Assembly: GCA_948144175.1 (NCBI GenBank)
Contig: CANXME010002052.1
Span: 1 to 64,000, forward strand
From: Closterium sp. NIES-65
Lineage: Eukaryota; Streptophyta; Zygnematophyceae; Desmidiales; Closteriaceae
Length of the DNA stretch: 64,000 nt
Reading direction: 5' to 3'
A model generated the notes under the pieces. The model did no database searches. It had not been told where the DNA came from and saw only the letters and a list, made by a program, of their open reading frames with translations. The position numbers were made by a program, and so were the translations under genes. Below, piece after piece: positions 1-64,000 of the stretch (its first letter is position 1; every line of letters begins with the position of its first letter).

Positions 1-3000
1 GGCCCGACAGCGACGAGTGTGTGGAGATGGCGGAGGGAGCTGGATATCGTGCTGGCCCCAGTGATAGGGTACCAAGACGTGGTTGGCTGGTTCTCTGCTA
101 ACTCGGAGATCCTGTGTCTTATCAGGTGCGTTCAATGGCATGCTGTGACACTCTCTCAACGGCAACGCGGTGGTGTATTTCATCGGGCCGGACAGCGATG
201 AGTGTGTGGAGATGGCGAGGGAGCTGGATATCGTTTTGGGACCCTGTCATCGGGTATCAAGATGTCGTTGGCTGGTTCTTTCTCGGCCAGTCTGGGTGAC
301 CCTGTGTCCTGGTATCAGATCAGGTAGGCTTTACAGGTGCCTGAACCCGCAGATCAGGGTTCACCCTGTCTGTCCCGTTGTGTCTCCCATCTCCCCTTCT
401 CCCCCCAACCCCTCAGGTGCGCTGGTTCATCCAAAGGCCTTCATGGAGCGCCATGCCTTCTGTCTTCTCCCCTCATCTCCGCTTACCCTCATGTATCTCA
501 TGTCAACTCCCTCTTTCGCTCCCTTCCCTTCCTCTCCCCCCCTTTCCCCCCCAACTCCCTCAGGTGCGCTGGTTCATCCTGAAGGCCTTCATGGAGCGCC
601 ATGCCTTTCCGCGCATCTTCTTCCTCGACTCGGATGTCATTCTCTTTGCCAACGTCACTGAGCTCGCCACCATGCTGTTTTCAAGGGTGCACCTCGTGGT
701 GTCGCAGCGCTGGCCCAGGTACGAACGCATGTGCTTGCCTAGGTGTGCAGGTATTCAGGCGTGTGGGCTACCCGTATGCGTGTGGGGCAATGTGGCTGCA
801 TGGTGGGCTACACGTGGGTGCATCTTCTTCCTCGACTTGGACGTCATCCTCTTTGCCAACATCACTGAGCTCGCCACCATGCTGTTTTCAAGAGTCCGCC
901 TCGTGGTGTCGCAGCGCTGGCGCAGGTACGAGTGGGTGCGTAGGCATGGGTGCATAGGTATGGTGCGTAAGTATGGGTGCGTAGGTATGGGTGCGTAGGT
1001 ATGGGTGCGTAGGTATGGGTGCGTAGGTATGGGTGCGTAGGTTATGGGTGCGTAGGTGTGGGTGCGTAGGTGGTGGGTGCGTAGGTGTGGGTGCGTAGGT
1101 ATGGGTGCGTAGGTATGGTTGCGTAGGTATGGGTGCGTAGGTGTGGGTGCGTAAAGTATGGGTGCCTAGGTATGGGTGCGTAGGTATGGGTGCGTAGGTA
1201 TGGGTGCGTAGGTATGGGTGCGTAGGTATGGGTGCGTAGGTATGGGTGCGTAGTGTGGGTGCGTAGGTGTGGGTGCGTAGGTATGGGTGCGTAGGTATGG
1301 GTGCGTAGGTATGGGTGCGTAGGTATGGGTGCGTAGGTGTGGGTGCGTAGGTATGGGTGCATAGGTATGGGTGCGTAGGTATGGGTGCGTAGGTGTGGGT
1401 GCGTAGGTCTGGGTGCGTAGGTGTGGGTGCGTAGGTATGGTTGCGTAGGTATGGTGTGTAGGTATGGGTGCGTAGGTATGGGTGCGTAGGTATGGGTGCG
1501 TAGGTATGGGTGCGTAGGTATGGGTGCGTAGGTGTGGGTGCGTAGGTGTGGGTGCGTAGGTATGGGTGCGTAGGTATGGGTGCGTAGGTGTGGGTGCGTA
1601 GGTATGGTTGCGTAGGTATGGGTGCGTAGGTATGGGTGCGTAGGTTTGTAGGTGTTCGGGGTGGTGGTTATGGTGCGGGGTGTATAGCCATCTTTTTACT
1701 CGACTCGGACGTCATCCTCTTCGCCAATGTCACAGAGGTCGCCACCAGGCTGTTCTCGAGAGTTCACCTGGTGGTGTCGCAGCGCTGGCCCAGGTATGGT
1801 TGGGTGTTCAGTTGTGGGGGGGTATGCATGTGGGGTATAGGGGCGTCTTTTTCCTCGACTCGGACGTCATCCTCTTCGCCAACGTCACAGATCTCGCCAC
1901 CAGGCTCTTCTCGAGAGTCCACTTGATCGTGTCCCAGCGCTGGCCCAGGTACACTGCTGTGCATGGGTATGGAGGGTGCCAGTATGGGCGTGGATGTGTC
2001 GGTGCCTCGTCGCCAACATCACAGATCTCGCCACCAGGCTCTTCTCGAGAGTTCATCTGGTGGTGTCGCAGCGCTGGCCCAGGTACGAGTGGGATCGGTG
2101 CAGCGACTCCTTAGGTAATGGCGGCATGGGTTATACGTATGGGAGGCATGGGCACAGGTGTGTGGATGCCTATTTGCCAACGTCACTGCACTCGCCACCA
2201 TGCTGTTTTCCCGCATGCACCTGGTGGGTGTCCCAGCGCTGCCTACTTTTGAGGCGCCTCAAAAGTCGTCGCCATTCTCCTTTCCTGCATGTATCTGGTG
2301 GCTGTCCCAGCGCTGGCCCAGGTATGGGTGGGGTGGGATACAGCGTGTCTCACGCTTCGCACTATACCCCCTGGTACCCCTCATGCCAACGTCGAGGGTG
2401 CACACGTCACGTGCTCGTCACTTGTGCTCTGAGTGCCCCGCACTATTGGAGCCCCGCACTATCGGAGCCCCGGGCCCCAGCCAGCCAAAACTAGTTACCG
2501 CAATTATTCCTTTACACAAGGTTTTCAAAGCAAGTTTGAACACACACTAAACAAACAGTTTGCTAAAAGCTGCTGCTGCCACGCAAAGACCATGACTCCT
2601 GTTTGGGGTTCGATTGCGCGTGCTCCTCACTTGTGCTCTGAGTGCCCCGCACCATCGGAGCCCCGCACTATCAGAGCCCCGGGCCCCAGCCAGCCACAAC
2701 TAGTTACCGCAATTATTCCTTTACACAAGGTTTTCAAAGCAAGTTTTAACACACACTAAACAAACAGTTTGCTAAAAGCTGCTGCTGCCACACAAAGACC
2801 ATGACTCCTGTTTGGGGCTTGATTGCACGTGCTCCTCACTTGTGCTCTGAGTGCCCCGCACCATCGGAGCCCCGCACTATCGCAGCCCCGCTCTATCGGA
2901 GCCCCGGGCCCCAGCCAGTACGCATCTGTGTCTCGCGTCCTTTTAAATTTCAGGTTGCCTGTACGTGTGATGTTCTCGCGTCCTTTTAAATTTCAGGTTG

Positions 3001-5691
3001 CCTGTACGTGTGATGTTCTCGCGTCCTTTTAAATTTTAGGTTGCCTGTACGTGTGATGTTCTCACGTTCTCTGGATGTCCTCTCCTCCTTCCCACTCCCC
3101 TCGCCATCCCTTCATCCTCCCTTTTGCCCCGTTTTCTATCTGCCCCCGCTCCCTACCAGTCTCCGAGCGCCAGGTCCCAACCAGTATGCATCCACGCTAG
3201 TGAGCGGTCACGTGTCCCTCTGGACGTACGATGCCCTCTCTGACTGTTCCCTCCCCTTCCTTCCCTCCTTCCCTCACCCATTCCTTAACAGTCTTCGTGC
3301 CCCAGGCCCCAGCCAGTATGCGTCCACAGCAGTGAGTGGGCACGTGTCCCTCTGGACGTACGATGCTCTCTCTGACTTCCTCGACTTCTTCCAGCTGTTT
3401 GTTCAGGTATGCGCTCAGGTGTTGGTCAGGTGCTGCTCTGTTGGTGTTCAGATGCTGCTCTGTTGGTCCTCAGGTGCTGCTCTGTTGGTGAGCATGCTCA
3501 TAGCGACATGGTGGCTGGCTGTTGCTTGTTTCCCCATTTCTTTCTTTCGTCTCACCTAAGGAAGCACTTCTGTACGGCCAACCAGGCCTTTGAAGCTCCT
3601 AATAAAGCTCCCATAGCCATTCCCCTACTCTCCCGCTCCGCATTCCTTCTTCCTCTCATCCAGGAAGCAACGCTGCATTGAGGTGGTTTTTGAGGCGCCT
3701 CAAAAACCACCTCGCTCCACATTCCTTCTTCCTCTCATCCAGGAAGCAACGCTGTACGGGCAGCCTGGTGATGCGCGGCTTGTAGCGGAGCGTGCTTATA
3801 ACAGCAATGTAACTACTACTATCACATTGCCCCCCTCTCTCGTTGTCCTCTCTAGGAAGCAACCCTGTACGGGCAACCTGGCGATGCACGGCTTGTAGCG
3901 GAGCGTGCTTATAACGACATGGTGGTGCTGGGCTGGTACACGCACAGGATCTGCTGGATGAAAAACCCTCAGAACCTGCACCCCCAGGTATGATGAGTAG
4001 ATATGCAGCATGCTTGGGCCCCGGCATCCCCATGTGTGCTTATAACGACATGGTGGTGCTGGGCTGGTACACGCGCAGGATCTGCTGGATGAAAAACCCA
4101 CAGAACCTGCACCCCCAGGTAAATTTGAAACCCTACACCCTGGTTGATCAGAGCCCAGAACCTGCATGTATGAGTAATATGTATACATTGGGTGCTGGGA
4201 TGGTACACTCACAGGGTGTGCCGGATGAAGAACGCCCAGAAACCTGCACCCACAGGTGTGGCTGAGTCTACATCCACAGGCATGAATAGGTACGCCGCAT
4301 GCGTGTGCCCCTACATCTCTATTTGTGCTTATAACGACAGGGTGGTGCTGGGATGGTACACGCACACGGGGTGCTGGATGAAGAACCTTCAGAAACCTGC
4401 ACCCACAGGTACTATTCTTACATCCAGAAGTATGGTTAATCGTCTCCCTTGATGCTTGACTTTGTTACAGTATTTCCTGGATGAGGAACCCCCACAACTT
4501 GGTCCCACAGGTGTGGTTAATTATAGTGCAACACCTGCAGGTATTAGTAATGAATCCAACTTTTCGTTTCTATCTCCCACCCTCCTTCCCTGTTTCCCCG
4601 TTTTAACTCCCACCCCCTTCCCTGTTTTTCCGTTTTGACTCCCACCCGCGCACTCCCCCGCCCATCAGTGCATCTGTGACAAGGAAAGTGGGGTCACTCC
4701 CGAGCGGTCAGTGCGCATACGAGGGCAGTTCACACCCAAGTTCCGGGTCGACTGGTTTGCAACGCCCCTGTGGTAGCTGGTGCCATGCCTCCCTTTCATC
4801 CTCCCCTTCCTGCCTCTCTTCCCTCCCCTCTGTCCCTTCCCACCCTGCCCCTCCCATCAGTGCATCTGTGACAAGGAGAGTGGGGTCACTCCCGAGCGGT
4901 CAGCGCGCATACGGGGGAAGTTCACACCCAAGTTCCGGGTCGACTCGTTTGCAACGCCCCGCTGGTGCAACGCCACAGACTGGTGGGACGAGGGGTGGTG
5001 CGTCTTTGATAACAACTTCTCCATCCAGGTGAGAACTTGACTTCTCGACAGAGCATAGCAGGTTTCCTGTATGGAAAATGACTGGTTTCTCTTACTGGTG
5101 GGACAAGGGGTGGTGTGTCTTCAATAGCTACTTATTTATTCAGGTAAGAACAGAGCCGCATCAGCTGTTGACAATGTTTTAGGGGCTGAAAAGCCTTTGA
5201 TAACATAGCATATGCACACACTTGAGTGACAGGGCCAAGGACTGCGAGAAGCAGAGGTCGCCGGTTCAATTCCTGCGACTGCGTTCTCCCCTGCAGTCAC
5301 CCACTCAGTTCTTTAAGTAACCGGCCTCAGGACGGCATGAAGTGCCCATCGCCGATGTACTACACTCACTTTGACGACTGGACCAAGGAGGGCAAGAAGT
5401 AGACTTCGCGAGTTCAATTCCTGCTGCTGCACCTTCCTGTTCTTCTCACTGCTCCCCTCCCCCCCCCCCCTTCCCCTGCAGACGCCCACTCAATTCTTTA
5501 AGTATCGTCCTCAGGACGGCATGAAGTGCCCCTCTTCTATGCACTACACTCATTTTGACGACTGGGCCAAGGAAGGGGAGAAGCAGACGTCGCCGGTTCA
5601 ATTCCTGGGAGTGCACTTTCAGGCGCACAGAAAGGGGTACCTCACAAGGGGGGATGATCCAGCAGCCACATGGGGTTCGAGCCCTGACTGA
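1..5691 (+). CDS. GT-A-type glycosyltransferase, 5' end cut by window
   Basis: Putative nucleotide-sugar-dependent glycosyltransferase, probably acting in the secretory pathway. Exon pieces that read well are: about 150-232 (VYFIGPDSDECVEMARELD); 566-719, with the DxD-type metal/sugar-nucleotide motif FLDSDVILFANVTE; 3304-3406 (SGHVSLWTYDALSDFLDFFQ); 3855-3987 (AYNDMVVLGWYT); 4860-5027, cysteine- and tryptophan-rich, ending in WCVFDNNFSIQ; and 5480-5691 (YRPQDGMKC, GVHFQ), with a stop at 5689-5691. The order DxD, then an SGxxSLWT segment, then a late FDNN and HFQ motif fits GT-A enzymes that modify glycans, but I cannot name the CAZy family. The N terminus, including any signal anchor, lies left of the window. 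Bases 1-60 hold a frameshifted copy of the first exon (one extra base in the MARELD stretch). Every exon has decayed tandem copies, so the real splice chain needs RNA data. Family assignment is inference. Confidence 0.55.
930..1655 (+). repeat. 14-bp minisatellite starting at a 5' splice site
   Basis: About 50 copies of a unit close to GGGTGCGTAGGTAT. The array begins a few bases after the CAG|GTACGAG donor of the second DxD exon copy and each unit contains donor-like GGTAT or GTAGGT strings. It lies in the intron of the glycosyltransferase gene. Open frames across it are a by-product of a stop-free unit. Confidence 0.9.
2247..2264. repeat. 18-bp palindrome, GCGC centre
   Basis: Perfect TTTTGAGGCGCCTCAAAA. 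It lies between two tandem copies of the SQRWPR exon end (2201-2241 and 2285-2316). Confidence 0.85.
2411..2935 (+). repeat. 209-bp tandem repeat
   Basis: Starts of the unit (GTGCTCNTCACTTGTGCTCTG) are at 2411, 2620 and 2829, giving a period of exactly 209 bp with two full copies and a partial third. Within it, a shorter GAGCCCCGCACTATC-type motif is repeated two to four times. It lies in an intron of the glycosyltransferase gene. Confidence 0.85.
2933..3061 (+). repeat. 43-bp tandem repeat carrying an acceptor-like site
   Basis: Three units begin at 2933, 2976 and 3019. Each contains TTTTAAATTTCAGG (TTTTAG in the third), that is, a 3' splice-site-like string, followed by TTGCCTGTACGTGTGATG. 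It directly follows the 209-bp repeat. Confidence 0.85.
3680..3713. repeat. 34-bp perfect palindrome with the 18-bp core
   Basis: The core TTTTGAGGCGCCTCAAAA is at 3688-3705; the symmetry extends eight bases further on each side (GAGGTGGT / ACCACCTC). It separates two copies of a roughly 45-bp segment (CATTCCTTCTTCCTCTCATC and beyond) at 3639-3676 and 3719-3758. Confidence 0.9.
3855..4510 (+). repeat. Tandem copies of the VVLGWYT exon
   Basis: Copies encoding AYNDMVVLGWYT and WMKNPQNLHPQ, or decayed forms of these, are at about 3855-3987, 4030-4117, 4190-4255, 4327-4411 and 4470-4511. A copy of the upstream half alone (EATLYGQPGDARLVAERAYN) is at 3740-3803. The first full copy keeps the longest frame and both splice sites. 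Confidence 0.75.
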
Positions 5692-10000: not shown

Positions 10001-11134
10001 CGTCGTCACCCTTCTTCTCCTCTTCCCAGTAAGAAGTGTCCGCCGGCGTGTCTGGATGTCCCTGTTTAAGCTACTCTCACCTCAAGTCCGCGCTAGCTGT
10101 CAACCTCACCACCAAGTGCATCCTGGGAGTCATTTCCACCATCGTCACCTTGATCCTTCTCCTCTTCCTTTGAAAGCCGTTCTTGTCTGCTTGACTTTTG
10201 AGTCGACTCAAAGTCAGCTCGTTCTTGTCTGCTTGCCTGCCTGCTTTCTTCCTGCCTTCCTGCCTGCCCGTCTGCCTGCCTGTATGCCTGCCTCCATGTC
10301 CCTGTTATAAGCTGTTCTCACCCGCACCGCGGCTTGTCAGCTTCGTTTCTACAATTCCCTCTGGTCTCTCCCCCTCACCCTCTCGATCCTCTCACCATCT
10401 CCCGCCACTCCACCTCTCCCGTATCAGTCCATCCTCGTGCTGCCTCTGTTGGGTCATCTCCTCAGGGCCGACACCATCCAAGCTCTCTTCATTGGCATCT
10501 CATTCGTTGTGCCCTGTGCTCCCTTACCCCTGCCCGTTCTGCTCTGCCCTGGCCATTTTTCCCCCTATTTCCCCTCTTCTCCCAGTCAATCCGCATGCTA
10601 CCTCTCTTTGGCCATCTTCTCAAATCTGACACCATCCAAGCCCTCTTCGTCTTCCTCCCGATCGCTCTCGCCGTTGGCATCACAGTTTTCTCCTTCAAGC
10701 TCGTATTCGTGCCCGGCGTCGCCACCCGATCACATCCTCCCTGCTTTCTATTTGCTAATCTCCATTGCTCTCCCCCTTTCCCCCCTTTCATGTCTGCCCT
10801 TCCCTCTCTCCATTCCCGCCCATCTCTCCCTGCTCTTCTCCCTCTCACACTACAGTCTATTCTCATGCTCCCGCTGTTCGGCCATCTCCTCAAGACAGAC
10901 ACCATCCAAGCGCTCTTCGTCTTCCTCCCCATCGCTCTCGCCGTCGGCATCACAGTATTCTCCTTCAAGCTCGTGTTCGTGCCTGTCGTCGCCACCATGT
11001 TTGTGTGCTTCGTGTGGGACAACCGCATTGAGGTGGATTCTGCTGGAGGTGCCACAGGGGGTGCTGCTGCTCCGTTAGCCACCTCACACACTGAGGAGCT
11101 GGCAGCTACAGTGGTGCCCAGGTCACACGCATAA
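7011..11134 (+). CDS. Choline-transporter-like (CTL/SLC44) membrane protein
   Basis: Predicted 736-residue polytopic membrane protein from three exons whose phases close exactly: 7011-8770, 9334-9505 and 10856-11134. The first ATG is 7011; the in-frame TTG at 6996 is not needed. Residues 1-115 are acidic and Ser/Thr/Gly-rich and probably cytosolic. Hydrophobic segments follow, with a Pro/Ala-rich extracytoplasmic loop after the third or fourth. The last third, AISGHGSRRSLALSTSLL followed by two membrane spans and ending VATMFVCFVWDNRIEVD, resembles the C-terminal hallmark of CTL proteins (a Ser/Arg-rich loop, then FLCFLED-like), which move choline or related solutes. The assignment rests on this recalled pattern. 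Exons two and three have many tandem copies, so alternative C termini are possible. The gene converges with the small gene at 11954-12660. Confidence 0.65.
8965..9070 (+). repeat. 15-bp minisatellite in CTL intron 1
   Basis: Seven or so copies of CGTCATCATTCCACG with C/T variation at one site, about 200 bases downstream of the first donor. Confidence 0.85.
9190..10170 (+). repeat. Tandem copies of CTL exon 2
   Basis: The exon head FVVVVAAISGHG occurs at 9191-9273 and 9334-9420. The exon tail, encoding AVNLTAKCILAVISTVVTLL, recurs six times: in the intact exon and at about 9572-9661, 9712-9783, 9838-9907, 9956-10029 and 10087-10171. Most copies end in a CTG|GTAAGA donor. Only 9334-9505 has head and tail together. 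Confidence 0.85.
10196..10213. repeat. 18-bp palindrome, TCGA centre, one mismatch
   Basis: TTTTGAGTCGACTCAAAG. It is flanked by two copies of CGTTCTTGTCTGCTTG, at 10178-10193 and 10220-10235. Confidence 0.8.
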
Positions 11135-13518: not shown

Positions 13519-16500
13519 ATGGCGAGATTGCTAGCTAACATGGTCCATGGCTCGCACTTGACGGAGTGGGCCTGGCGACTAAGTCCTGCGAAATTCAGTA
13601 TTAGAGGTATTGATTATAGAAGATTTAGCTATAGACCACGGGGGATTGGTTCTGGGAGGGTGTTCTTGTCGCCTAACGAGAGCATGCTTCAATCGCGGAT
13701 CCATTCGACTTATGGAATCAAGAACAGTAGTATCAGTCGCAGTGGTAGTGGTAGCAACACTAGCCGATCGTATCACTCATTTTCCGGCAGTGCGAGTAGC
13801 ACGACTAGCCATGTCGCCTCTGGCATTCGAACCGCGTGTGGGAGTGGTAAAGAGGATATTAATCTAGCATCCAGATTGAACTTGAAAGAGCCGTTCAATC
13901 GAAAACATCACGCAGCGTCTGTCCGTAGTCGCCATTCGTCAGCAGGTACCCAGTTCTCTCGCAGTCTAGCAACGTCCATAATCCCTGACGCTCCGCCAAT
14001 CACGGACGGACAGCTAGAGCAGCTGCACGATTTCGTGGCTGGCAGCCGGCGGCTGCTGGTGCTGACTGGCGCTGGGGTGAGCACGGAGAGTGGCATTCCG
14101 GATTACAGAAGGTCAGTCTATAACGGGGATAAACAGAGATATATTCAAAGCGGTAGCTGCTGGTGCTGACTGGCGCTGGAGTGAGCACGCAGAGTGGCAT
14201 TTCGGATTATAGAAGGGAATGTTTTTCAATGGACCGGTGGTGGTGCTAACAGTCGCTGTGATCAGCACGCCAGAGAGTTCCTGAAACTTTCTTGACGGGA
14301 TTTTTGTTTTTTTTTTTGGTTTCTGATTCACTAATTCGATTTTTTTCTGGTTGCATGGTTTTGCACGACTGCATGGATCTTGCGTTTTGATAAACGTGCA
14401 GCCCAGGCGGAGCATACAGTAAGGGGTACAAGCCAATGATCCATCAGGCAGGTACTTGAGAGGGAGAGTCACTTTTTAAAGTTTTCATGCATTTGAAGAT
14501 ATGGCTGGTAAGGAAGCATTCAGTAAAGGGTACACTGCAAGATCCACCCAACAATTCAGTTCCCTTTTTAATCCTCTTACTCCAATCGCAGGTTTTGGGG
14601 AATGGTGTCAGGAGAGTGTTTTGAGGCGCCTCAGTGCCCTTCTTATTGCTGCTATTCTCCTTCTTCACGCCAGGACTTTGTTCGTTCTCTGTCTGCCCGG
14701 AGACGCTACTGGGCTCGCAGCTTCATTGGCTGGCGGAGATTTTCAGCTGCCCGACCAGGAACCGCACACAGAGCATTGGCGCGGCTGCATGCAAGGGGGA
14801 GGCTGGAGGGCGGCATTATCACTCAGAACGTTGACAGGTGTGTTTCACACGCTGCAACTTGCAAGGCATGTAGCAAGGGGGCTAGACTGTCTTGCTTGAG
14901 AGGCACGGCGAACAGGGCAATAACGCGGCTGCATGCGAGGGGGAGACAGGAGGACGGCATTATCACTCAGAACGCTGGCAGGTGCGTTTCAGATGCTGTA
15001 AGGCGTGTGGCGAAGAGACTTAGCCAAGTGTGTTTGGGAGGCGTGGTGGAGGCGTGGTGGAGGCGTGATTGGGGAGGTCACTGAGGGCATTGGTGCGCAG
15101 GGCACTGGCACGGCTGCACGAGAGGGGGAGACGGGAGGGTGGCATTATCACGCAGAACGCTGGCAGGTGCGTTTCAGACGCTGTTGTGTCGCACATGCTT
15201 CCAGGTGACTCACCTATGTCCCCCCCTCGACTGCACCGCATTGCGGGAAGCCAGTCCTTGAACTCCACAGCACTCCAGCGAACCACCCTTTGTGATCCCC
15301 CTCCCCCTCCCCCCTCCCTCTCCCCCTCCCCCTCCACCTCCCCCTCCCCCTCCCCCTCCCCCTCCCCCTCCCCCTCCCCCTCCCCCTCCCCCTCCTCCCC
15401 TGCCATTCCACACGCCCATTGTTTTTCCACCCAGACTACACCACATCGCGGGAAGCCCAGCCCTTGAACTCCACGGCACTACCCATGAGGTAAAAAAAGG
15501 AAATAGGTTTTCAAGGGCGTGAGTTGAGCTGGGTAGCGAGAGTAAGGCTTCCTTGCTCCATCCACCATGCAAAACAGAACACTTCGTCCATGTTCAACAT
15601 CTTCCAACATCTTCCAACGTGCCTGTGCCCTTCGTCCGTGTTGCTCCATAAGAAAGAGATGCCCTCTTTTTTGTGTTTAATATTGTAAGCGGTCTTGTGC
15701 TACTAGTGGTTAAACACTCGTGTGACGTCTAAGTGATGTCATGACTTTTTTCGGTCCCTGTCATGTGTTGTTCTCATTGCATCGCCAGGTGGTCTGCATG
15801 GAATGTGGCGACATCTCATGTCGAAGAATCTTCCAGGAAAGGATCAAAGGAGCCAACCCAGAGGTCTGTTCTTCTCCTTTTTCTGAGCCTGGCCCTCTAG
15901 TACCTTTGCACCCCAGAAAAAAAAAAAAGATATATATATATATATGTATATACATTTATATATTCTGAAGAAAAGAAGAAGGAAAAAACTACAAATTGTT
16001 GTGGGGTGGAATAGCTTCATTCTTGCCAAGGAAATATTCATGAAAGCTGCATTTGTTTGCGTACGCTTTTTTCTCCCCACCCAACCGGCATCCTTGAATG
16101 CTCTGCTGCTTCTTTCCGGCCCAACCACAGAGGTGACTTTTGAGTCGACTCGAGAGTCACCTTGCTGCTTCTTTCCCGGCCAACCACTGGACCACACCAC
16201 AGCATTCCAGCACTCAAATTAGACTTCTCAAACCAGCACCCTCTTTCCTCCATCTCCTCCCGCCTTTCCCCTGCTTCAAACTCGTGCCAGTGTGCAGTAG
16301 CATTGGAGCATTTGGCGGAGGGCAGGCTGGCAGGGTCGGATGATTCAGATGGGGGCAGCCAGATGGGGGATATTGAGATCAGCGTAGAGGAGTGGGAGAG
16401 GCACGTGATGTTTCTCCGCCCCACCCTCTTCCCCCCTTCTCCTCCCCTCTCCCCCCTGCTTCCTCTTCATGCAGTGGGCAGCAGCGGTGGAGCACTTGGA

Positions 16501-17778: not shown

Positions 17779-18002
17779 TGGTCTGATTCGATATGATGAT
17801 CTGATGTGTTTCGACATAGTATGACAATTCCTATCGGTATTGGTTCAAGATGTTGATTCATTACTGGAATTTGTGAGCTCTTGTTGTCCTTTGTTGTACA
17901 CTTAAGTGGGAGACTATGGTAAGAGCATCTTCATGCAAGCCACATCATTTTTGAGTTGTCTCAAAAGCCACACCATGAAATTCCAATGATTCCACTTGAG
18001 AG
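17779..18002. terminator. Short convergent gap between SRT2 and SDR
   Basis: Only 224 bp separate the two stop codons, so both 3' untranslated regions must lie here or overlap. No clear AATAAA is present on either strand. The 17949-17966 palindrome sits inside. Confidence 0.4.
17949..17966. repeat. 18-bp palindrome flanked by 10-bp direct repeats
   Basis: TTTTGAGTTGTCTCAAAA, one mismatch from symmetric. It abuts GCCACATCAT (17939-17948) and GCCACACCAT (17967-17976) exactly, which looks like a target-site duplication. Confidence 0.8.
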
Positions 18003-21568: not shown

Positions 21569-24500
21569 ATGAGGGAGGACGAGAAGCACGAGAAGATCAT
21601 TCGCGCACTGATGAAGCTCCCGGAAAACCGGAAGTGCTTCAATTGCAACAGTCTGGTACCTGCTTCATGCCCTGCTGCACCATACCATACAGTACCGGAC
21701 GGTGCCTTGCCGTCCTTCACATTCCGTGGCTTCTGTTGACTTCGAACATTGTAGCAACATGCGAGATGCAAGGCCGAAAATGCCAATGTCGTGTCAATGT
21801 CATGTTGATGGGTTTCGATTGTCGTGCCAGTGCCTTCTCATTGTCACAGCAACGACTAGCGAAACGTATGACAATGTAGTGTCGCGTCAATGTCGTGTCA
21901 GTGTCATGTTGCCTACACTAACTGTCATATCAATGTGATGCCATCGCCATGTCAGTGTTTTGTAGAATTCATGTCAACATGATACCATTGCCATGTCCGT
22001 CTTATGTAAATGTCCTGTAAATGTCAGATCATGTCAAAAACCTACTCGCATTCGTTAACACCAACTGTCTTCCAATTTTGAGTCTCCTCCTGTTTCTCGC
22101 CAACGCTGCACAGTGCACACCACCACCCCAGGGGACTCAGTACGTACGTGTGCACCAACTCTGTCATCCTCGTCTGCCTTTCATGAGAAGACGTATCCAA
22201 GGACGCATGCGTCATCCCATCCCACGCACGCCTTTCATTCTTGAGGCGCCTAAGAAATCATGGAAATACGTATCCAAGGACGCATGCGTCATCTCATCCC
22301 ATCCCATCGCACGACTTTCATCATTCTCTGTCTCCCCTCTTCGCCTACACACACTGCACACTCCCTCAGGGCCCTCAGTACGTGTGCACCAACTATGCCA
22401 TCTTCGTCTGCCCTTCATGCAGCGGTGTCCAGTTGAGTGTCCTGTCCTCTCTGCTCCACCTTAATTGCCTGTTCTGCTCTATTGTAATAGCTTTCCTCGT
22501 GTCCCCTCATTCTCCTCTCAGTACGTGTGTGTGCACCAACTATGCCATCTTCATCTGCCCTTCATGCAGCGGGGTCCAGTCAAGTGCCCTCTCTCTCTGC
22601 TCCACCTTAATTGCCTGCTCTGCTCTATTGTAATAGCTTTCCTTGTGTCCCCTCAACGCCACGGTAGTTCATTCTTCTCTCAGTACGTGTGTGTGGACCA
22701 ACTATGCCATCTTCATCTGCCCTTCATGCAGCAGGGTCCAGTCAAGTGCCCTCTCTCTCTGCTCCACCTTGGCTGTCCGCGCTTTGTGCCGTCAATTCAA
22801 TGTTTCTCATCTTCCCTTAAGAGCATGGGGATCCATTCTTCTCCCTCTATCAGGTGTTTTTTTTTTTTTTTTTAGTAAACGCCTTTCGTACAATGCTTCT
22901 TCTGTGCTATGTTTTTTTTTTGCATGGTGCTGTTTGCAGTCGGGAGTTCAATCATCGTGTCAAGTCTGTATCAATGGCCAAGTTCACGCCTGAAGAGGTG
23001 GCGGCACTACAGCAGGGAGCGAACCAGGTGAGAGGCGGGCAGTGAAGGGGTAAGAACCATCGTGTCAAGTCGGTGTCAATGGCCAAGTTTACACCAGACG
23101 AGGTGGCAGCGCTGCAGCAGGGAGCCAACCAGGTGAGAGCTGGTAACCTGGTGACCAGTCGAGGGGTAAGCAGCTTCGTGAAGTTGCCTCCACTCCAGGC
23201 ACTCTACCCTATCCTTCTCTCTTTGCTCTCAGACAAGTTGTTGTGTTTGTAGAAGCTGCAAAGCATTGCAGTGTACTCTCTCCTGTGCTTCTTCCATCTT
23301 TGCACCCGCGCGTCCTCGTACTCCCTCCCCTTCTCCCCCTTCTTCTTCTCCCCCCCTTTTCCTTTCTTGCAGCGGGCACGAGAGTACTTTCTCCCAGGGG
23401 GCGGCCGAGCCCCTCCCAACAGCAAGTGAGTCACTGAGTAGTGCATGCCTGCCTGCCTGCCTGCCTGCCTGCCCTATAATTATACTGTGCCGCTCGGCTT
23501 GAGGGTCAGCTGAGCCCCTGCAATGGCAAGTGAGTCACTAAGTTGTTGTGCTGCTGCTGCTTCTGGCTGCCCTATTTATTCATTGTGCTGCTCGGCTTGA
23601 GGATCAGCCGTGGCTTGGCCCATTCAACCGCAAGAAAGTTTCTTCGAGTGGTCTTTCTGGGAATGGAATGTGATGGGCACAGTTTATGAAAACGCTCTGT
23701 CATTCCTTACCTCCTCCCCTACCCTCCTCCCCTACCCTCCTTCCCTGCCCCCTCCCCGTCGCTCCTCCTCTTGCCAACGCCCCTCCAGTGACCCCCAGCC
23801 TGTGAGGGAGTTCATTCGAGCTGTCTTTATGGAAATGAAAGGCGATGTGACGCGCACCCTTCTCCCTTTCCACATCCGCTTACTTCCCCCTCTCCTCTTG
23901 CCAACGCCCCTCCAGTGACCCCCAGCCCGTGAGGGAGTTCATTCGAGCTGTCTTGAGGGAGTCCAGTGACCCCCAGCCAACGCCCCTCCTGTACTTGGGA
24001 TGCACAACCACAGGTGGACGAAAAGCCCTGCTTTTGAGTCGATTTTTTAGTCGACGCAAAAATCGACTCATCACACGTGGAGAGGCGATACATGGGATGC
24101 AGGCAGGCAGGACCACAGGTGGACGAAAAGCCCTCATGGCTCCTCCTCCTCGCTGTGTGTTCTTTCCCTTCTGCCCTTTTTCTTCCACCCATCAGCGACC
24201 CCCAGTCTGTGAGGGAGTTCATTCGAGCTGTCTTCTTGGAGAGGCGATATGTCGGGCGGAACTCACGAGAGGTATGTGGTGATGATACTGGCAATGGTGA
24301 ACATGACCCACGACGAGAGGTATGTGATGTGGTGATGTTGCTCGTGGTGATGGTGATGGGTATAGTGGTGATGGTGATGGGTATAGTGGTGATGGTGATG
24401 GGTATAGTGGTGATGGTGATGGGTATAGTGGTGATGGTGATGGGTATAGTGGTGATGGTGATGGGTATTGGTGATGGTGATGGTGATGGGTATAGTGGTG

Positions 24501-25089: not shown

Positions 25090-25123
<34 letters not shown>

Positions 25124-28196: not shown

Positions 28197-28802
28197 CAAC
28201 AGCAGCGCCAGTCATCGGCAGTGACAACAGCAAGTACCATTATCATCATAAGTCAGTCAGTACCTTACTTGGCTTCTTTTCTTATGTACACTCATATTTT
28301 ATGCTAGGTTATTGCCCAGAAAAGCATATAAACCTGGCATGCCCGGTGCAGTGGGTTCTTGCAAACACAGGTACCGTAACACATTGTTGTTAAGATTACA
28401 CATTTTTGTTAAGATGACACAATTGTTGCGGAGCATGAACAAGATGAATGTTCAAGATCCATTCCATATGCCGAAGCAACTGTTCGAATCAAATAAAATA
28501 AATTAAATGGAAACAAATGAACATATAATACAATTGTGCATCGCCCTGATGTCAATGTTGCTGCGGCTGCTGTTTCAAACCTGCCGATGTTTTTTTTTTT
28601 GTTTTTGTTTTTTTTCAAGAGAGAATACCATACAGGTACCATTTCCGCCGGTCCTGTTACAATGAACAAACAGTGCTGCTGCTGGGTTGCTGTAGGTGTT
28701 GGGGTTAGGAGGACTGATGGTTATCGTTGCATTTCCTGCTACTCCTGCTGCTGCTGTTCCTGCTTTTCCCAATAGTGCACCTGCCCTTGCTCTGCTACCA
28801 CC

Positions 28803-28821
28803 TTTGAGGCGCCTCACAAAA
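28803..28821. repeat. Palindrome, GCGC centre, one inserted base
   Basis: TTTGAGGCGCCTCACAAAA. It lies inside the unit of the local tandem repeat, so it has been copied along with it. Confidence 0.7.
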
Positions 28822-28942
28822 CACCCGTCCCTGCTCCAGTTGCTCCCCCCACCACACCTCCCCTGGTCCCTGCCTCCAATACCTGCCCTTCCCCTGTCAC
28901 ACCCCCACAGCCCACTAGCCCTCTGCTTGTGCTGCTACCGCC

Positions 28943-28961
28943 TTTGAGGCGCCTCACAAAA
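28943..28961. repeat. Palindrome copy, identical to 28803-28821
   Basis: The same sequence with the same inserted C, 140 bp downstream, followed by the same ACACCCGTCCCTGCTCCAG. The later units (near 29100) have lost the palindrome. Confidence 0.7.
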
Positions 28962-29332: not shown

Positions 29333-29350
29333 TTTTGAGGCGCCTCAAAA
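29333..29350. repeat. 18-bp palindrome, GCGC centre
   Basis: Perfect TTTTGAGGCGCCTCAAAA, extended by CA/TG on each side. No flanking direct repeat was found. Confidence 0.8.
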
Positions 29351-29557
29351 TGCACCTCACTACACAAGGAAAATGGAGCGCGGGAGGAGAGATGGAAAGG
29401 GAAGGCGTAATAAGGAAAGCACGAGAATGAGAGAAAACAAGAAGAGATCAGAGAGCAGACGGAGCGAAGAGAAAGGGAGAGGACGAGGGAGACAAACGAG
29501 GAGTGAAAGAGAACAAGAATGGGAGAAGGAGAAAATAAAAAGGGTAAGAACGCAAGC

Positions 29558-40157
<10,600 letters not shown>

Positions 40158-41795: not shown

Positions 41796-44700
41796 ATGCC
41801 TCTCTACACCCAGCTGTCGCTATTATCTCACTGCCATAATTGCTCAATATCGCCACCGTCCCTCTGCATTCGCTCGGACCGTCAGCCTGGTCTACCCATT
41901 TCTCGATCCTCCGCACAATCCAGCATTTCTAATAGTAGCCTCATGTCGAGTCGTAGCCTCGTCTTAGCGCCATTGCCGCTGCCGCTGCTTATGCCGCGGC
42001 GAAATGGTCCCTGGGATTCTGGAAACCGGCGGTCCTGCTCTAGCAGGATTGTAACCGCCGCGACGCCAGGCGCAGCCGGGGGAATGCGCGCACCCCCCGC
42101 TTCCCCTTTCGCTTCCCCCAGTTCCACCTCCCCGCGCTCCGCTATCCCCGGCTCCGCGTCCCCCCATTCCGCTCTGCGCACCCTCCAAACTCGTAGGCAA
42201 TCCCGCTCTAGCCGCATCACAACCGCTGCAGCGTCAAATGCCCCGGGTGGAGCTTCCGCCTCCCCCGCATCCGCGCCCGCTGCGCCTAGGCCCGGCGCGA
42301 GCGGAGGCGGGGAGGCGCTTATATCGGGGGAAGGGCTGGCGAAGAGCTTCGGAATGGACGTTCTTTTCGAGGGGCTGGATGTGACTATAAGCAGAGGGCA
42401 GAAGCTGGGGCTGCTGGGGCGGAACGGATGCGGTAAAAGCACATTGCTGAGGATACTAGCGGGGATGGACGCACCTGATAAGGGCAAGGTGCAGCGCCGG
42501 CGGCACCTGAACCTGGCGTTTCTCGCTCAGGTGAATTCAACAATAACTACACGGCCAGTCCGACCCTAGCTGCTCTTATCTTTAGGCACATAAGGTTGTT
42601 GAGTAAACCAGGGGCCGGACCTGCCCGCCGGGATCCAGACCTGCCCGCCGGGATCCAGACCTGCCCGCCGGGATCCAGACCTGCCCGCTTATTTCTGTGC
42701 ACATAAGGTTGTCAACACTTTTCCATGCCCTCCTTTATCCCTAACCCCCAACCCCAACTCTCGAACCCCAAACCCCAAACCCCGAACCCCGAACCCTGAA
42801 CAGGACCCCGATTTACCCGCGTCTCTGTCTCTTCTAGACGCAGTACTATCTGCAGACAATGCCGCCATGCGTGCTGTGAGGGAGTACTCACTGCATTTCA
42901 TAACCCCGAAACCCACTACCCTAAAATCACCAGGATCCGGACCTACCCGCGTCTCTGTCACTTCTAGACGCGGTGTTGTCAGCGGACAATGCGGCCATGC
43001 GTGCTGTGAGGGAGTACGAGCGAGCAGCACAGAGGATGAAGGGCCGAGGTGCGTGTGTGAATACGGTTTGTGGTTGTGGAGCAACTTGTAAAGGGGATGA
43101 GAGCAGGGGTGAGGGGAAGGGGCATTGGTTGGCAGGGCTATCATCGGACAATGCCGCCATGCGTGCTGTGAGGGAGTACAAGCGAGCAGCTCAGAGGATG
43201 AAAGGCCGAGGTGTGTGTTGTGGGGCGGCTTATATAGGGGATGGAAGCAGGGGTGAGGGGAGAGGGAGGGCTATCAGCAGACAATGCTGCCATGTGCGCT
43301 GCGAGGGAGTCCGAGCGAGCAGCGCAGAGGATGAAGGGCGGCGGTGTGTGTTGTGGGGCGGCTTATAAAGGGGATGAAAGCAGGGGTAAGCGCAGTATGC
43401 GTGTGGTAGTGAAGTGGATGGGTTGGAGGCCATTGGGGCATGGAATGTGGTGGCAGAGGCGGAGCAGCTCACATCTACTTTTTAGAATTCTCAAAAGTAG
43501 CTCACATCTACCTCCCTACACCCTAAACCCCCCTTGAACCCCTTCACCCACCCCCTCCTCCCGCCCCCCCCCCCCCGGTGCTTCCACCAGACCCCACCCC
43601 TCTTCAGAGGCAGCAGCGCTGCAGCGAGCCATGGATGGGGTGGAGGCGATGGGGGCATGGGACGTGGTGGCAGAGGCGGGGAAGAGGGTTGCTCATTATT
43701 CAACCCCCCTCCCCTACGCTCTCAACCCTACCCCTCAAAACCCCAAACCCCAAACCACCAGACCCCACCCCCTCGGAGGCAGCAGCGCTGCAGCGGGCCA
43801 TGGATGGGGTGGAGGCGATGGGGGCATGGGACGTGGTGGCAGAAGCAGAGAAGCTGCTGGAGATCCTCGGGCTGGGGGACGCTGCTCTCACCAACGGTGG
43901 TGGCGGTGGTGGCGGGGGGATTATGGAGCGGCAAGTTTCGTCGCTTAGTGGCGGGCAGAAGAAGAGAGTGGCCCTGGCTGCGACGCTGCTGGCAAAGCCA
44001 GAGCTGATCATTCTCGATGTGAGTGGCTTTGTGCGTGATGCGAGTCAGGGAAGAGAGGGATTGAGGGAAAGGGAGAGATAGGAAGAGAAAGGAGGGAGAG
44101 GAGGAGTGGAAGAGGGCGGGTGGCCCCCTGGCTGCGACGCTGCTGGTGAAACCAGAGCTGATCATTCTCGATGTGAGTGGGCTTTGCCGATGTGAGTGGC
44201 TGTGTCAGTGTGAGTGCATTTGTTGATGTGCGTTACGAGGAGAAAAAATGAGGGAGGGAGAGGAGGATAAGGAGAGGGTGGCCCCCTGGCTGCGACGCTG
44301 CTGGCGAAACCAGAGCTCATCATTCTCGATGTGAGTGGCTTTGTCAAAGTGAGTGTGGAAGAGAAGGATTGAGGGAGAGGTGGACAGCTAAGACCTCAAA
44401 GAAACCAGAGCTCATCATTCTCGATGTGAGTCGATCTGCCTGCCTCTCCGCCTCTGCCTCTCCGCCTCTGCCTCTCCGCCTCTGCCTCTCCGCCTCTGCC
44501 TCTCCGCCTCTGCCTCTCCGCCTCTGCCTCTCCGCCTCTGCCTCTCCGCCTCTTCCTCTCCGCCTCTGCCTCTCCGCCTCTTCCCGCCTGAACAAGGGCA
44601 AGATTCAAAGAATTCTGCATTCACCACTCCCCCTTACCCAGATCCCCCACTCCTTTTCCTCTCCCTCTATCTCCATTACTCCTTGAATCCCCTCCTGCCA

Positions 44701-47700
44701 CCCCATTGCTCTTTGCCACTCCTCACCATTAGGAGCCCACCAACCACATGGACGGGACAGTCATTGATTGAATGTCGCCCTGCCCCCTCCCACTGTCCAT
44801 CACGTTTTCAATCCCCCACCCACCACTCTACCCACTGACCGCAGGAGCCCACCAACCACATGGACGTGGCGGTCATTGATTGGATGCAATCCGCCCTCTC
44901 CGACCCCTCTCTCACCGTCGTCCTCGTCTCTCACGACCGTTACTTTCTCGATGCCGTTGCACGCAAATGCTCGAGATGACACCCTTGGTGGCTTCTCACC
45001 CACACGCCCACTCATATTCCTCGCCTCAACCCTACCCCTGAACCTGAAAGAACCTAATTCCGTCTCCTCCTCCACCCACCCTCCCCCTCACCAGGAGCCC
45101 ACCAACCACATGGACGTGGCAGTCATTGATTGGATGCAATCCGCCCTCTCCGACCCCTCTCTCACCGTCGTCCTCGTCTCCCACGACCGTTACTTTCTCG
45201 ACGCCGTCTGCACTCAAATGCTCGAGATCGACCGGGGGACCTCCTTCCGCCACTCGGGCAACTACACAAACTTTTTGGCTGCCCGGGCGAAGAGGGCGGT
45301 CGAAGAAGCCGCCGCGATTGGCCGGGCAGCAAACACGCTGCGGCGGGAGGGGGAGTGGATGCGGCGAATGCCGAAAGCTAGATCGACTAAGTCCCGGTCG
45401 AGAATCGACCGGTTTTTGGCGCTTACTAAAGCAACGGCGGAGAAAAGGCAGCGGCAGCAGCAGGCGGCGGTGGGGAGTGTGGTGGAGATGGGTATGGGGG
45501 AGGCACGACTGGGTGGGAAGGTGTTGGAGTTGAGAGATGCTACGGCAATGCGAGGAGAGAGCACCGTGTTTGAAGGGTTTACGTGAGTGCGGTGGGGGAG
45601 GGTTGGGAGGGATGGGAAGGGATGGGAATGTGATTGTTTGGTGGACTGTGGCTCTTGGTATCACGGCTGTGTGCTGTGTGTGGGATGGGAAGGTGCAGGA
45701 GTTGAGAGATGCGACGGCCATGAGGGGAGTGAGCACTGTGTTTGAAGGGTTCACGTGAGTGTGGGGAGGCGGATGGGGGAGGATGGGGGTGTGATTACTT
45801 GGTGGGCTGTGGCTGTTGGTTGTACGGCTGAGGGAGCTGTGTGTGGGATGGGAAGGTGTTGGATGGAGCTGAGAGATGCGACGGCAACGCGAGGAGAGAC
45901 CCCTGCGTTTGAAGGGTTCACATGAGTGTTGGGGAAGGGGTTGTGGTGGGGAAGGATGGGGGTGTGGGTTATGGGCATGTATTTTGAGAATTCTCAGAAT
46001 ACATATGCAGCATCAAATCTCAGAATACATATGCAGCATCAAATCTCAGAATACATATGCAGCATCAAATCTCTCTCCCAGGGTGTTAGTTACGGCCAGT
46101 TACGGTGCCTCATCTCAGTTTTCTATGCGCGTCAAAACTGAGATGAGGCACCGTGTTTACCCATGTCCTCTACCTTAGCCCCCTTGTCACATGTCCCTGA
46201 GATGTTTGCACAACTCTTCCATGTCCATACGGGAGCTTGCAGAGTGTGATAAGTCGAGTTTTGAGTTTTGAGACGTCTCAAAAGTCCATGTCCATACGGG
46301 AGCTTGCAGAGTGTGATAAGTCGAGTTTTGAGTCGACTCCGATGAGCTTGCAAAACTCGGCTTATCACGCTCTGCCTTGGCCTCCTTCTCCCCAGTTTGC
46401 ACAACTCTTCCATGTCCCCAGCACGCACAAATACCTCCCGTATTCCGCATGCCCTCCATCCCTCCATCCCCTCATGCCCTGTCTTGGCCTCCTTCTCCCC
46501 AGTTTGCACAACTCTTCCATGTCCATACGGGAGCTTGCACGCATAAATACCTCCCGTATCCCCCATGGCCCCCATCCCTACATCCCCTCATGCCCTGTCT
46601 TGGCCCCCTTGTCCCCCATCCTCTTGCATGCTCTCCCCGCGGCATACCGTCAGGTATGAGTTTGGTCGCGGGGATCGGCTGGGAGTGGTGGGCCGAAACG
46701 GAGCAGGGAAGACCACTGTAAGCACCTTACCTTAACTAGCCACAATTTTCGAGTTTTGAGTCGACTCAAAACTCGACTCATTACACCCACTGTAAGCACC
46801 TTACCTCAACTAGCCACAAATTTCTTCTTCTTCTTCATGGATCGGCTTAACTTAACCCAATTTTCTGGGGTCATCGGTATTCTTCTCTTTTCTCCTTCTC
46901 TCTCTCGCCCCTTCTTCCCTCCCGCTCTCCTCACTCCTTTCCACTTTCCTCCCTCGTCTTTTGTCCCTCTTCCTCTTACAAGATTGTCTCTTTCCCCTCT
47001 GCCCCCCACCCCTTCCCTCCCTTCAGTTCCTAGATGCATTGGCAGGGCTGCTGCCTCTCCCATCGGGTACCAGAGATGTGGGGGAGACGGTGGTGATGGG
47101 CTATTACACACAGCACATGCCCCCCGTGCCGGACAACATGCTCGACTTTGTTCAGAACTTCCCCTTTCCCTTCTTCTCCCTCTCCCCTTCCTCTCCATCT
47201 CCCCTCTTCTCAGTTCCTAGACGCGTTAGCAGGCCTCCTGCCTCTCCCTTCCGGTACCAGAGATGTGGGGGAGACGGTGGTGATGGGCTATTACACACAG
47301 CACATGCCCCCCGTGCCGGACAACATGAGAGTTCTCGACTTTGTTCAAAACTTCAACCCGACAGCTGCTGTCCTCGGCTCCTGGGGCTCCATCCCTGCTG
47401 CAGCTGCCGCTGCTGCTGCTGGTGATGGTTCTGCCTCTAGTTCTTCTCCCGTTGCTGCTGGTTCGGGTGGGGCTTCTATGTCTGGAGGGAGTGGTTCGGA
47501 CGAGCCTGTTTCCGCTTCGGAGCTTCTGGAGCGGTTTGGATTTCCCCGGGCGAAGCAGTACGCCTGGTGAGACCCTGCTTTCCCATTGTTGGCACTCAAT
47601 ATGTCAGTGGGCCTAATACATTCGGTTCACCTTAGTAGGCTCCCTCCGCTCCTTGAATATGTTCTTCCTCCGTTTCCCTCACGTTCCTCCCTCCTACGTG

Positions 47701-58497: not shown

Positions 58498-59045
58498 AGC
58501 GCGCTAGGCGCTAGCGCGCTAGGCGCCAGCGCGCTAGACGCCAGAGCACAAGGCGCCAGCGCCTTAGGCGCCAGCGCTTTAGGCGCCAGCGCGCTAGGCG
58601 CCAGCGCGTTACACGCCAGCGCGCTAGGCGCCAGCGCGATAGGCGCCAGCGCGCTAGGCGCCAGCGCCATACGCGCCAGCGCGCCAGGCGCCAGCGCGTT
58701 AGGCGCCAGCCGCTAGGCGCCAGCGCGCTAGGCGCCAGCGCGCTAGACGCCAGAGCACAAGGCGCCAGCGCCTTAGGCGCAGGCGCTAGGCGCCAGCGCC
58801 TTAGGCGCCAGGCGCTAGGCGCCAGCGCGCTAGGCGCCAGCGCGTTAGACGCCAGCGCGCTAGGCGCCAGCGCGCTAGGCGCCAGCGCGCTAGGCGCCAG
58901 CGCCTTAGGCGCCAGGGCCTTAGGCGCCAGCGCGCTAGGCGCCAGCGCGTTAGACGCCAGCACGCTAGGCGCCAGCGCGCTAGGCGCCAGCGCGCTAGGC
59001 GCCAGCGCGTTAGGCACCAGCGCGCTAGGCGCCAGAGCATTAGGC
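58498..59045 (+). repeat. 15-bp minisatellite, right part
   Basis: About 36 copies of the same GGCGCCAGCGCGCTA unit, continuing the array broken by the retrotransposon. It includes an internal duplication: the block with AGACGCCAGAGCACAAGGCG appears near 58530 and 58745. Confidence 0.9.
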
Positions 59046-62417: not shown

Positions 62418-64000
62418 ATGACTACAGTACCACTTACTAGCGATGTTACTGACACTTCGTCGCGACGTCACGAAAGCGCGTCCTTTCGACGGTCGTCGCA
62501 GGAGCGCAAAGAAGACGTCGCAGCATCAGATAAACACCTGCCTCGGCACGTGTCCAAGACGACCTTTGCGTCTCTTATACGACAGCTTGTTAACGTCCAA
62601 AAGTAAGTGGCTTGATCTCATTTTCGTTAGAGCTCGCTTCCTTCCATCTACTTACCGATTAAGTGTTTCTGTTTATTCAAAGGTTTTCTGACATTGATTA
62701 CTCACCTCCTTAATTTCTCCCCACTATATCCCCACCTCCTTCCCTCTTGGATAATTGTCAATACCCACTGTAATTGTCGCCTCGGCGAACCAACAGCAAG
62801 ACCCACCCCTCTCCGTCCCACGACTCTTCGCCTTGCCTGCCGAACCTGGGCAAACTCCGAAGCTCGCTGTCCGCCGAGCCTCCGTCCGTTCCTCTCACTC
62901 TTCGTCTAGTCCCTCCTGGCTCGGGGATCATTTGGTGTTCCCAACTGCAAGCCCAGGACTCGTACGGTCACTACGCGCCGAGCTACCTCCAATCTAGAAG
63001 AGTTTGTCACCAATGGGAGCCGCCTCACATGTAAGACACCTGAATACGTCCTACCTATTGATGTACACCACATTCTACATCCTACATTCATAAAGACGGG
63101 AAGAGAAACGCCCACCCCGTCTCCTCCGTCCCCACCATTCGTCACGTGTGTTTCTTCCCTCACATTTTCTCCCCCCCCCCTTTCCCCCCGCGCATCCTGT
63201 GTCCGTTTATGTGTTTCATTCCTCGACGTCCACAGCAGCCCATCTCAGAGCGTCTTTTGAGGTTCTTGCGGCGCAGGCGCTGACAATGGCTTGCTTTTGA
63301 GACGTCTCAAAAGTGTCCCCCCTCACCTCCCTTCTTCCCCCCCGCATTCCCCGACTTCCACAGCAGCCCATCTCAGAGCGTCTTCGAGGTACTTGCGGCG
63401 CAGGCGCTGACAATGGCTTGCGCGCAGGAGGGGCGGCAATCAGCAGCGGAAGGGCAGCAAATACCGCGGAAACGGACACACGGAAGCGAACACAGAGGGG
63501 TGTATAGAGAGGTGTATGGACAGAAGCATAGCGCACATAGGGTCGCTGATTCGGGGATGTTGGTGAAGCAAGCAGAGCAAGCCACGGCTAGGGGAGAGGT
63601 ATCAGCTGGGGCAGAGGCACGGGCAGGAACAGAAGCAGCAGCACGGACAGAAGCAGAAGCAGGAGAGAAGGAGGTTCGTGGAGTCCTACTAGCTAAAAGC
63701 TGCGGTTCAAATCCCAACGACCCGTCTAACCCCCAGCTGGCTCGGGGTGCTGGTCTATTTGCTCAGGATAGTGAACCCCGCGTGTCTCAATCTCAGCCGT
63801 CCGATAGTGAAGGGATTTATCTGATGGGGATAGATGCGCTGGAAGCTGCGCTGGCACTGAAAAGACGGGAGGAGGAAGGGGTGGAGGAGAGGGAGGGGAT
63901 TGAAATAGAAGAAGAGGAAAAGGAAGAGGAAAAGGGAGAGGAGAGGGAAGAGGGGGTGGTGTGTATAAAACGGATAGAGGGGACTTTTGGAGGAAGTGAT
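62418..64000 (+). CDS. Unrecognised gene, 3' end beyond window
   Basis: Exon 1 (62418-62602) starts MTTVPLTSDVTDTSSRRHES, ends LIRQLVNVQ, and meets a perfect GTAAGT donor with two bases over. Exon 2 from 63364 supplies the third base after CCACAG and stays open to the window end: SPSQSVFEVLAAQALTMACA, then an Ala/Glu/Arg-rich stretch, then GIYLMGIDALEAALALKRRE and a long Glu run. An earlier copy of exon 2 at 63236 meets TTT TGA after ten codons, so the second copy is the usable one. The protein looks largely disordered and charged. Function unknown. Confidence 0.5.
63295..63312. repeat. 18-bp palindrome, ACGT centre
   Basis: Perfect TTTTGAGACGTCTCAAAA. It separates two copies of a roughly 60-bp exon segment ending GGCGCTGACAATGGCTTGC (63276-63294 and 63403-63421). 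Confidence 0.9.

Follow-up and report, generated by a model that had tools for sequence, protein, structure and literature searches.

Short palindromes with flanking host duplications in the genome of Closterium sp. NIES-65: a candidate SINE-like element

In positions 1 to 64,000 of contig CANXME010002052.1 of Closterium sp. NIES-65 (assembly GCA_948144175.1; this whole 64,000-nucleotide stretch is referred to as the window), an 18-bp palindrome of the form TTTTGAG-NNNN-CTCAAAA recurs with the same arms around differing centres, which raises the question of what these palindromes are and how they came to lie there. The initial annotation had proposed either a mechanism that builds palindromes or several subfamilies of a minimal hairpin element; that reading was partly supported by the present analysis of one genome, made on DNA sequence alone, and it had overlooked duplications of the flanking DNA, a 54-bp form ending in CACGTG, and truncation of copies at one end. 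On balance, we favour the view that the palindromes are copies of a very small, non-autonomous element resembling a short interspersed element (SINE), which would enter the genome at staggered nicks by copying that begins at its CACGTG end.

Copy number, centres and subfamilies

The recurrence of TTTTGAG-NNNN-CTCAAAA is real and genome-wide. Across the 2,400 contigs of the assembly, 874 Mb in total, there are 30,327 exact sites, whereas the reversed pattern, used as a control, was found four times; the counts are therefore far above expectation, and not at the chance level that had been raised as a possibility. Comparison with shuffled sequence, which the initial annotation had proposed, gave the same answer on the scale of the window, where 23 matches with at most three mismatches stand against a mean of 2.7 and a maximum of 7 in the shuffles, and 23 was reached in 0 of 100. 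A palindrome scan of 265 kb of fetched sequence returned 79 places, most of them members of this family. Four self-complementary centres, TCGA (13,080 exact sites), GCGC (5,851), ACGT (5,047) and AATT (2,601), make up 26,579 of the 30,327 exact cores, the remaining 3,748 being tallied only jointly, so that most exact cores have no unpaired loop of 3-5 nt. Among the sampled loci, several other centres (TCAA, TTGA, ACAT and GTGC) were one step removed from the main ones. In the window, the seven copies reported as perfect (2247, 3688, 29333, 31128, 46266, 46754 and 63295) were all exact; a self-complementary centre, claimed for every intact copy, was found in seven of the eight copies with exact arms, the exception being the copy at 17949, with the centre TTGT.

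The centres together with the flanking G and C coincide with restriction sites, and this favours an assembly or library artefact in which linker or adapter palindromes were incorporated. Graded decay of the core and of the flanking duplications, subfamilies and CACGTG-linked variation would all be unexpected in such a case, and we regard an artefact as exceedingly improbable. A viral origin was also considered and rejected: in a viral contig collection the exact TCGA core occurred in no stretch and the GCGC core in one, judged a chance match in sequence unrelated to the family.

Longer palindromes are built around the 18-bp motif as their core. Symmetry beyond the core had been described for the window, and it is perfect over 34 bp at 3680-3713, 28 bp at 46749-46776 and 26 bp at 31124-31149, with shorter extended symmetry of 22 bp at 2245-2266 and at 29331-29352. 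The outer arms are common to unrelated loci within a subfamily and unlike between subfamilies; this agrees with the earlier proposal of fixed arms and of a small element, able to form a hairpin, that exists as several subfamilies, and the accompanying argument that the copies do not reflect decay of one ancestor was judged right. The commonest TCGA-centred form seen was a 32-bp palindrome, AGGTGAC-core-GTCACCT, with 321 exact copies genome-wide. Full-length members of the ACGT group measure 54 bp and consist of two 27-nt arms, CACGTG-N12-TTTTGAG-NN, placed head to head. CACGTG stood at a distance of exactly 12 bp from the core six times in the sample, and at no other spacing more than once; when one mismatch was allowed, the 12-bp spacing was found in 21 cases and the next-best spacing in 8. 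Genome-wide, CACGTG-N12-TTTTGAGNNNNCTCAAA gave 597 + 578 matches (1,175 arms) against 0 for the control, where about 15 would be expected by chance according to our own arithmetic (2 x 30,327 / 4,096), and most of these arms belong to the ACGT group. Of 59 distinct arms taken from listed places, 53 had ACGT or near-ACGT centres, and their N12 segments carried A at position 6 in 53/53, G at position 7 in 48/53, and C in 22 of 636 letters. The likeness of CACGTG-12-bp spacer-core to the heptamer-12-nonamer arrangement brought a RAG-like reading into consideration; it was rejected, as the flanking duplications are far too long.

Flanking duplications and palindrome-free sites

The sampled loci were stretches around listed sites and some site-blind stretches, taken from the first listed contigs and thus non-random; four loci that overlap others (L001, L002, L024 and L025) were dropped. 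This sample contained 123 exact cores, 57 of them in arrays and 66 outside arrays. A direct duplication of the flanking DNA was present at 50 of the 66 non-array sites, and its length was not fixed but ranged over 16-97 bp (median 46), where a score of at least 12 was required and the boundaries were taken from our own alignment script. Target-site duplication of variable length is a trait of insertion of the SINE type and of the type of long interspersed elements (LINEs). The background of this test stays high (20-48%), as random positions passed the same threshold in 59 of 300 cases in the window, 145 of 300 in the tandem-repeat-rich loci L013-L023 and 67 of 300 in dense loci. An initial control, in which 172 of 500 random positions and 35 of 45 palindromes scored at least 20 (control median 10), had a raised background because of microsatellites and tandem arrays and was therefore replaced by gap-penalised and two-copy tests. 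With the two-copy test, 31 palindromes in long loci yielded 15 pairs, 10 arrays and 6 sites without duplication, compared to 24 pairs, 102 arrays and 274 without among 400 random positions in the same long loci, and 45 pairs, 71 arrays and 284 without among 400 random positions in the window alone.

Paralogous sequences were compared at four sites, and two of the comparisons were clean. The palindrome at 2247 of the window interrupts an exon-like unit, and the repeats of this unit near 642, 848, 1720 and 1890 are uninterrupted, with neither a palindrome nor a second flank copy; likewise, the copy at L005:9299 has two paralogs without a palindrome and with a single flank copy. At L009:2611 the paralog is missing further sequence besides the insert and one copy of the duplication, and the comparison at L010:9264 was uninformative. 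As far as a single genome allows, it is well supported that the palindromes are insertions accompanied by host duplication. These comparisons also bear on the view that a non-mobile palindrome, bound by protein or structural in its role, seeds local tandem duplication, such that the duplications follow the palindrome and not an insertion. The 57 array sites and the richness of the genome in tandem duplications would agree with that view, but the single flank copy at palindrome-free paralogous sites and the identical long arms at unrelated loci do not, and we hold it to be very improbable. Arrays with 37-, 42- and 53-bp units look like later amplification of an insert together with its duplication. 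Half-elements of the GCGC type also form dense tandem arrays with a spacing of about 19-24 bp (L076 and L006:5150-5480).

Interrupted local duplications are not confined to the palindromes. A survey of 174 kb found 124 interrupted direct duplications, with a core-like spacer in 11, and the genome seems prone to such events in general. Palindrome-free examples with a coding-looking sequence that ends in GT(A/G) were seen in the window at 1691-2000, 3905-3990, 9410-9901, 44306-44336 and 47769-48301, and elsewhere. A link to splice sites was considered, as 5' splice sites seemed to fall within many of the duplications, and dropped: donor-like motifs numbered 4.4 per kb in the duplications (14 of 63 sites) versus 3.1 in the window, 2.2 in L005-L023 and 3.5 in the outer flanks.

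Junctions, arm covariation and the route of copying

In copies picked for a complete CACGTG end, the opposite end breaks off at various positions. Of 42 CACGTG junctions that were informative, 15 have CA or CAC in common between host and element, where the duplicated host sequence would predict 9.4% (binomial p ~3e-6), and at least one base is shared in 25; at the truncated junctions, two or more bases are shared in 13 of 30, versus 14.7% in swapped controls. The preference for CA was seen only for CACGTG ends, as a general sample of 46 sites was without a motif at the duplication ends. Among 20 ACGT loci that were not selected for their arms, a full N12 arm was seen by eye on one side in about 11. 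The data on one-ended truncation come from ACGT/CACGTG copies only. Furthermore, 17 loci with a CACGTG half-arm and no exact opposite core were fetched; six had nearly their full length but mutated cores (L141, L143, L144, L146, L147 and L149), at least three broke off no more than a few bases from the centre (L140, L150 and L151), the rest were rearranged, tandem or partly decayed, and none was the end of a longer element.

The movement of LINEs and SINEs by target-primed copying is recognised by a combination of four features: one end is preserved, the other stops at staggered positions, the preserved end pairs briefly with the host, and the duplications vary in length. On this ground, target-primed copying was judged the likeliest route for the Closterium copies, with moderate confidence, and from it we infer a chemistry and an enzyme of the kind by which LINEs copy SINEs. 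In such a reaction, a nick would expose a 3' end of host DNA, for example ...CA, and this end would pair with the terminal UG or TG of a self-complementary template, either RNA or single-stranded DNA, ending in CACGTG. Synthesis would start at the CACGTG end, pass the centre and often halt early; a second nick 16-97 bp away, followed by fill-in, would leave the host stretch duplicated, and later recombination at the duplications could turn some insertions into arrays.

The main rival to target-primed copying is capture during break repair, in which short double-stranded palindromic fragments would be ligated into staggered breaks by microhomology-mediated end joining and fill-in would duplicate the host sequence, with no LINE-type enzyme involved. 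The microhomology at both junctions, the extra bases at some of them, the lack of a target motif in the general sample and the many interrupted local duplications without palindromes are consistent with capture. It leaves unexplained, however, the abundance of inserts from one short family, the CA/CAC preference at the CACGTG end, and the one intact end common to full-length and truncated copies (these copies being selected for the intact end); we consider it unlikely, though it deserves serious attention. In a third route, the palindrome would be a miniature inverted-repeat transposable element (MITE), a DNA transposon derivative of which only the terminal inverted repeats are left, directly adjoining each other, and which a transposase would move. 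Perfect inverted repeats, high copy number and a fixed CACGTG end in one subfamily are what such an element would show, but the duplications vary in length (16-97 bp), there is no fixed target sequence, truncation is one-ended, and the 17 half-arm loci are decayed or truncated copies and not ends of longer elements, which makes this origin improbable.

The two arms of a copy do not vary independently. Of 71 copies found with an intact CACGTG arm, 65 were distinct, and the match of the opposite arm beyond the core extended over at least 11 positions in 20 of them, 5-9 in 19, and 4 or fewer in 26. Covariation was assessed in an alignment of 20 copies chosen for long complementary arms, in which the pairing itself is expected and the informative point is the variation among copies. 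Two-sided changes affect 10 of the 12 pairs in N12 (90 cells versus 30.2 in shuffles), and the N12 covariation score was 0.425 versus 0.114 in shuffles, a value reached in 0 of 500, with a slid maximum of 0.145; only 10 of the 240 N12 cells were unpaired, and 3 were U-G. Joint change of the arms, nearly without wobble intermediates, fits copying of one arm from the other. The palindrome-building mechanism proposed in the initial annotation would agree with this pattern, but selection for a perfect palindrome is equally compatible and would give the identical result. A tentative extension is that the element palindromises itself: what replicates may be just one variable arm, on which its partner would be rebuilt whenever the element moves, for instance by two strands being joined or template-switched through the self-complementary centre. 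Single-arm mutations would therefore appear in both arms of offspring copies, and such rebuilding would account for an N12 that is hypervariable yet complementary, for the near absence of G-U pairs and for the differing self-complementary centres. Two CACGTG copies (L142 and L154) have a scrambled centre, as if a template switch had occurred inside the hairpin during synthesis.

It should be noted that several observations weigh against target-primed copying of a SINE-like element. A perfect hairpin makes a poor template. Among the 30,327 sites only about 1,175 arms carry an exact CACGTG, which TCGA, GCGC and AATT copies seldom have, and the picture of copies anchored at one end rests on one subfamily, since exact CACGTG occurs mostly in ACGT copies. 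At 17 of the 42 CACGTG junctions nothing is shared or up to 6 extra bases are present, 6 of the 31 copies in the two-copy test show no duplication, and the duplication ends at the 46 general sites show no motif beyond a weak G at -2. Palindrome-free local duplications are themselves common in this genome. Two of the five covariation measures (pairs with double change and pair types) were not above shuffles, and the 20 aligned rows had been picked for long complementary arms. Neither a poly(A) tail nor one of simple repeats caught the eye at the junctions inspected, where no systematic test was made; as regards a Pol III-type promoter or a head derived from a small RNA, the window gave no Rfam match at gathering scores and no tRNA gene, other promoter types being outside that search.

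If the favoured reading is true, Closterium carries a nuclear mobile element of 32-54 bp in tens of thousands of copies; the usual size of a SINE or MITE is well above this. Its long duplications would seed new tandem repeats and rearrange gene sequence, and it would offer a simple case in which to define the minimum sequence that an insertion machinery needs. The co-varying arms would also open to testing an old question, whether palindromic symmetry is kept by selection or rebuilt at each copying event.

Copies in the window and comparison with known elements

Of the 23 core-like sites in the window, 13 pass the duplication threshold, including six of the eight with exact arms; no strand was assigned to any copy. 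Among GCGC copies, the palindrome at 2242..2265 (core 2247-2264) lies between duplications 2192-2241 and 2266-2315, and the palindrome at 3676..3712, with the 34-bp symmetry and an arm in common with the unrelated locus L066, between 3634-3675 and 3713-3754. A decayed inserted copy at 22225..22257 is flanked by 22181-22224 and 22258-22301. Duplications were not found around the decayed copy at 14619..14636 (three mismatches) or the exact copy at 29333..29350, which has 22-bp symmetry. Two near-perfect copies reported at 28803 and 28943 are present, with their starts corrected to 28802 and 28942: the decayed copy at 28802..28819 lies in a local tandem repeat and has no duplication of its own at threshold, and a second decayed GCGC copy, at 28942..28959, lies in that same repeat. 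The half or decayed copies reported at 14619, 22239, 24032/24044, 24565, 38348 and 46326 were all present. The copy at 17949..17966, with exact arms around TTGT, has no duplication that was found.

TCGA copies with duplications were found at 10194..10215 (one mismatch; 10175-10193 and 10216-10235), at 16129..16162 (the 32-bp AGGTGAC-core-GTCACCT subfamily with two mismatches; 16104-16128 and 16163-16187), at 31119..31154 (26-bp symmetry; 31078-31118 and 31155-31196) and at 46751..46786 (28-bp symmetry, one arm extending to CTCATTACAC; 46713-46750 and 46787-46824). The TCGA copy at 24030..24101 (core 24044-24061, two mismatches) has weak duplications (23997-24029 and 24102-24134; score 12.2), and one of its arms extends to CACGTG (reverse strand CACGTG-TGATGAGTCGAT-TTTTG); for the half-decayed copy at 38348..38365 the duplication is under threshold. 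AATT copies, each with one mismatch, lie at 43479..43498, with short duplications (43466-43478 and 43499-43511; score 12.6), and at 45982..45999, which adjoins a 26-bp tandem array and has no duplication at threshold. The ACGT copy at 63295..63344 (core 63295-63312) is flanked by 63217-63294 and 63345-63421. A second ACGT copy, at 46266..46284, has duplications 46218-46265 and 46285-46332, each with part of a TCGA copy; we read this copy as nested, as if inserted into the TCGA copy at 46326..46343 (identified by motif match and duplication scan), which it interrupts and partly duplicates. Between about 41800 and 49100 there are fragments of an ABC transporter gene in which exon-like segments recur in tandem, and five members of the family (43479-46754) lie inside this span.

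The window also contains a Copia-type polyprotein reading frame of 1,740 aa (52936-58158; RVT_2, rve and gag_pre-integrs), with arrays of one 15-bp unit on its two sides at 51313-51593 and 58498-59046, perhaps in long terminal repeats, and a nearly pure AC dinucleotide array of 1.75 kb at 32496-34248. In the assembly, rbcL of the green type gave 20 full-length, identical-scoring matches and 4 partial ones (best solved chain 9chz), the full-length matches being on C40, C75, C97, C162, C265, C824, C1848, C1961 and C2174, several per contig and on both strands, which suggests that the assembly contains the plastid in several or rearranged copies. Two 3.9-kb plastid rbcL loci contain neither a core nor a half core, and among the palindrome matches listed none lies on the rbcL contigs C40, C75, C97 and C162.

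Short palindromes that appear selfish, of about 50 nt on average and in several families often inserted in one another, have been described in the organelle DNA of Volvox carteri, with some nuclear copies that the authors regarded as inert transfers (PMC2670323). The Closterium palindromes are like these in size and hairpin potential; however, the Volvox palindromes have 3-5-nt loops (TAAA/TTTA) and reside in organelle DNA, whereas those of Closterium have a self-complementary centre and are nuclear on the evidence at hand. Most of the Closterium copies examined have long flank duplications, and the stem 'duplicat' has no occurrence in the Volvox text (PMC2670323). Tiny hairpin elements thought to be mobile, as in Closterium, are also described in the mitochondria of sponges, with elements of Allomyces, yeast and Neurospora cited alongside, all of them mitochondrial; an RNA route was suggested for Allomyces since flanking duplications are absent (PMC2800124), unlike the long and frequent duplications of Closterium. 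The LIMP palindromes of the mitochondria of the green alga Lobosphaera incisa share an invariant centre with those of Closterium but number 19 mitochondrial copies and consist of pentanucleotide repeats around a 7-nt loop (PMC4524435).

No description of the palindrome family was met in the literature searched, and we do not claim that none is in print. SINEs, moved by LINE target-primed reverse transcription, show variable target duplications, truncation at one end, and short pairing between the host 3' end and the element. The Closterium element works like a SINE in those three traits and differs in being at most 54 bp long, palindromic and without a noticed tail; we know of no partner LINE for it. 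MITEs are short, non-autonomous elements with inverted repeats and very many copies, and the Closterium element is unlike them in having no fixed-length target duplication, target motif or internal region and in its one-ended truncation. We file the family with short mobile palindromes and SINE-like elements as a variant, and as a member of neither the SINEs nor the MITEs.

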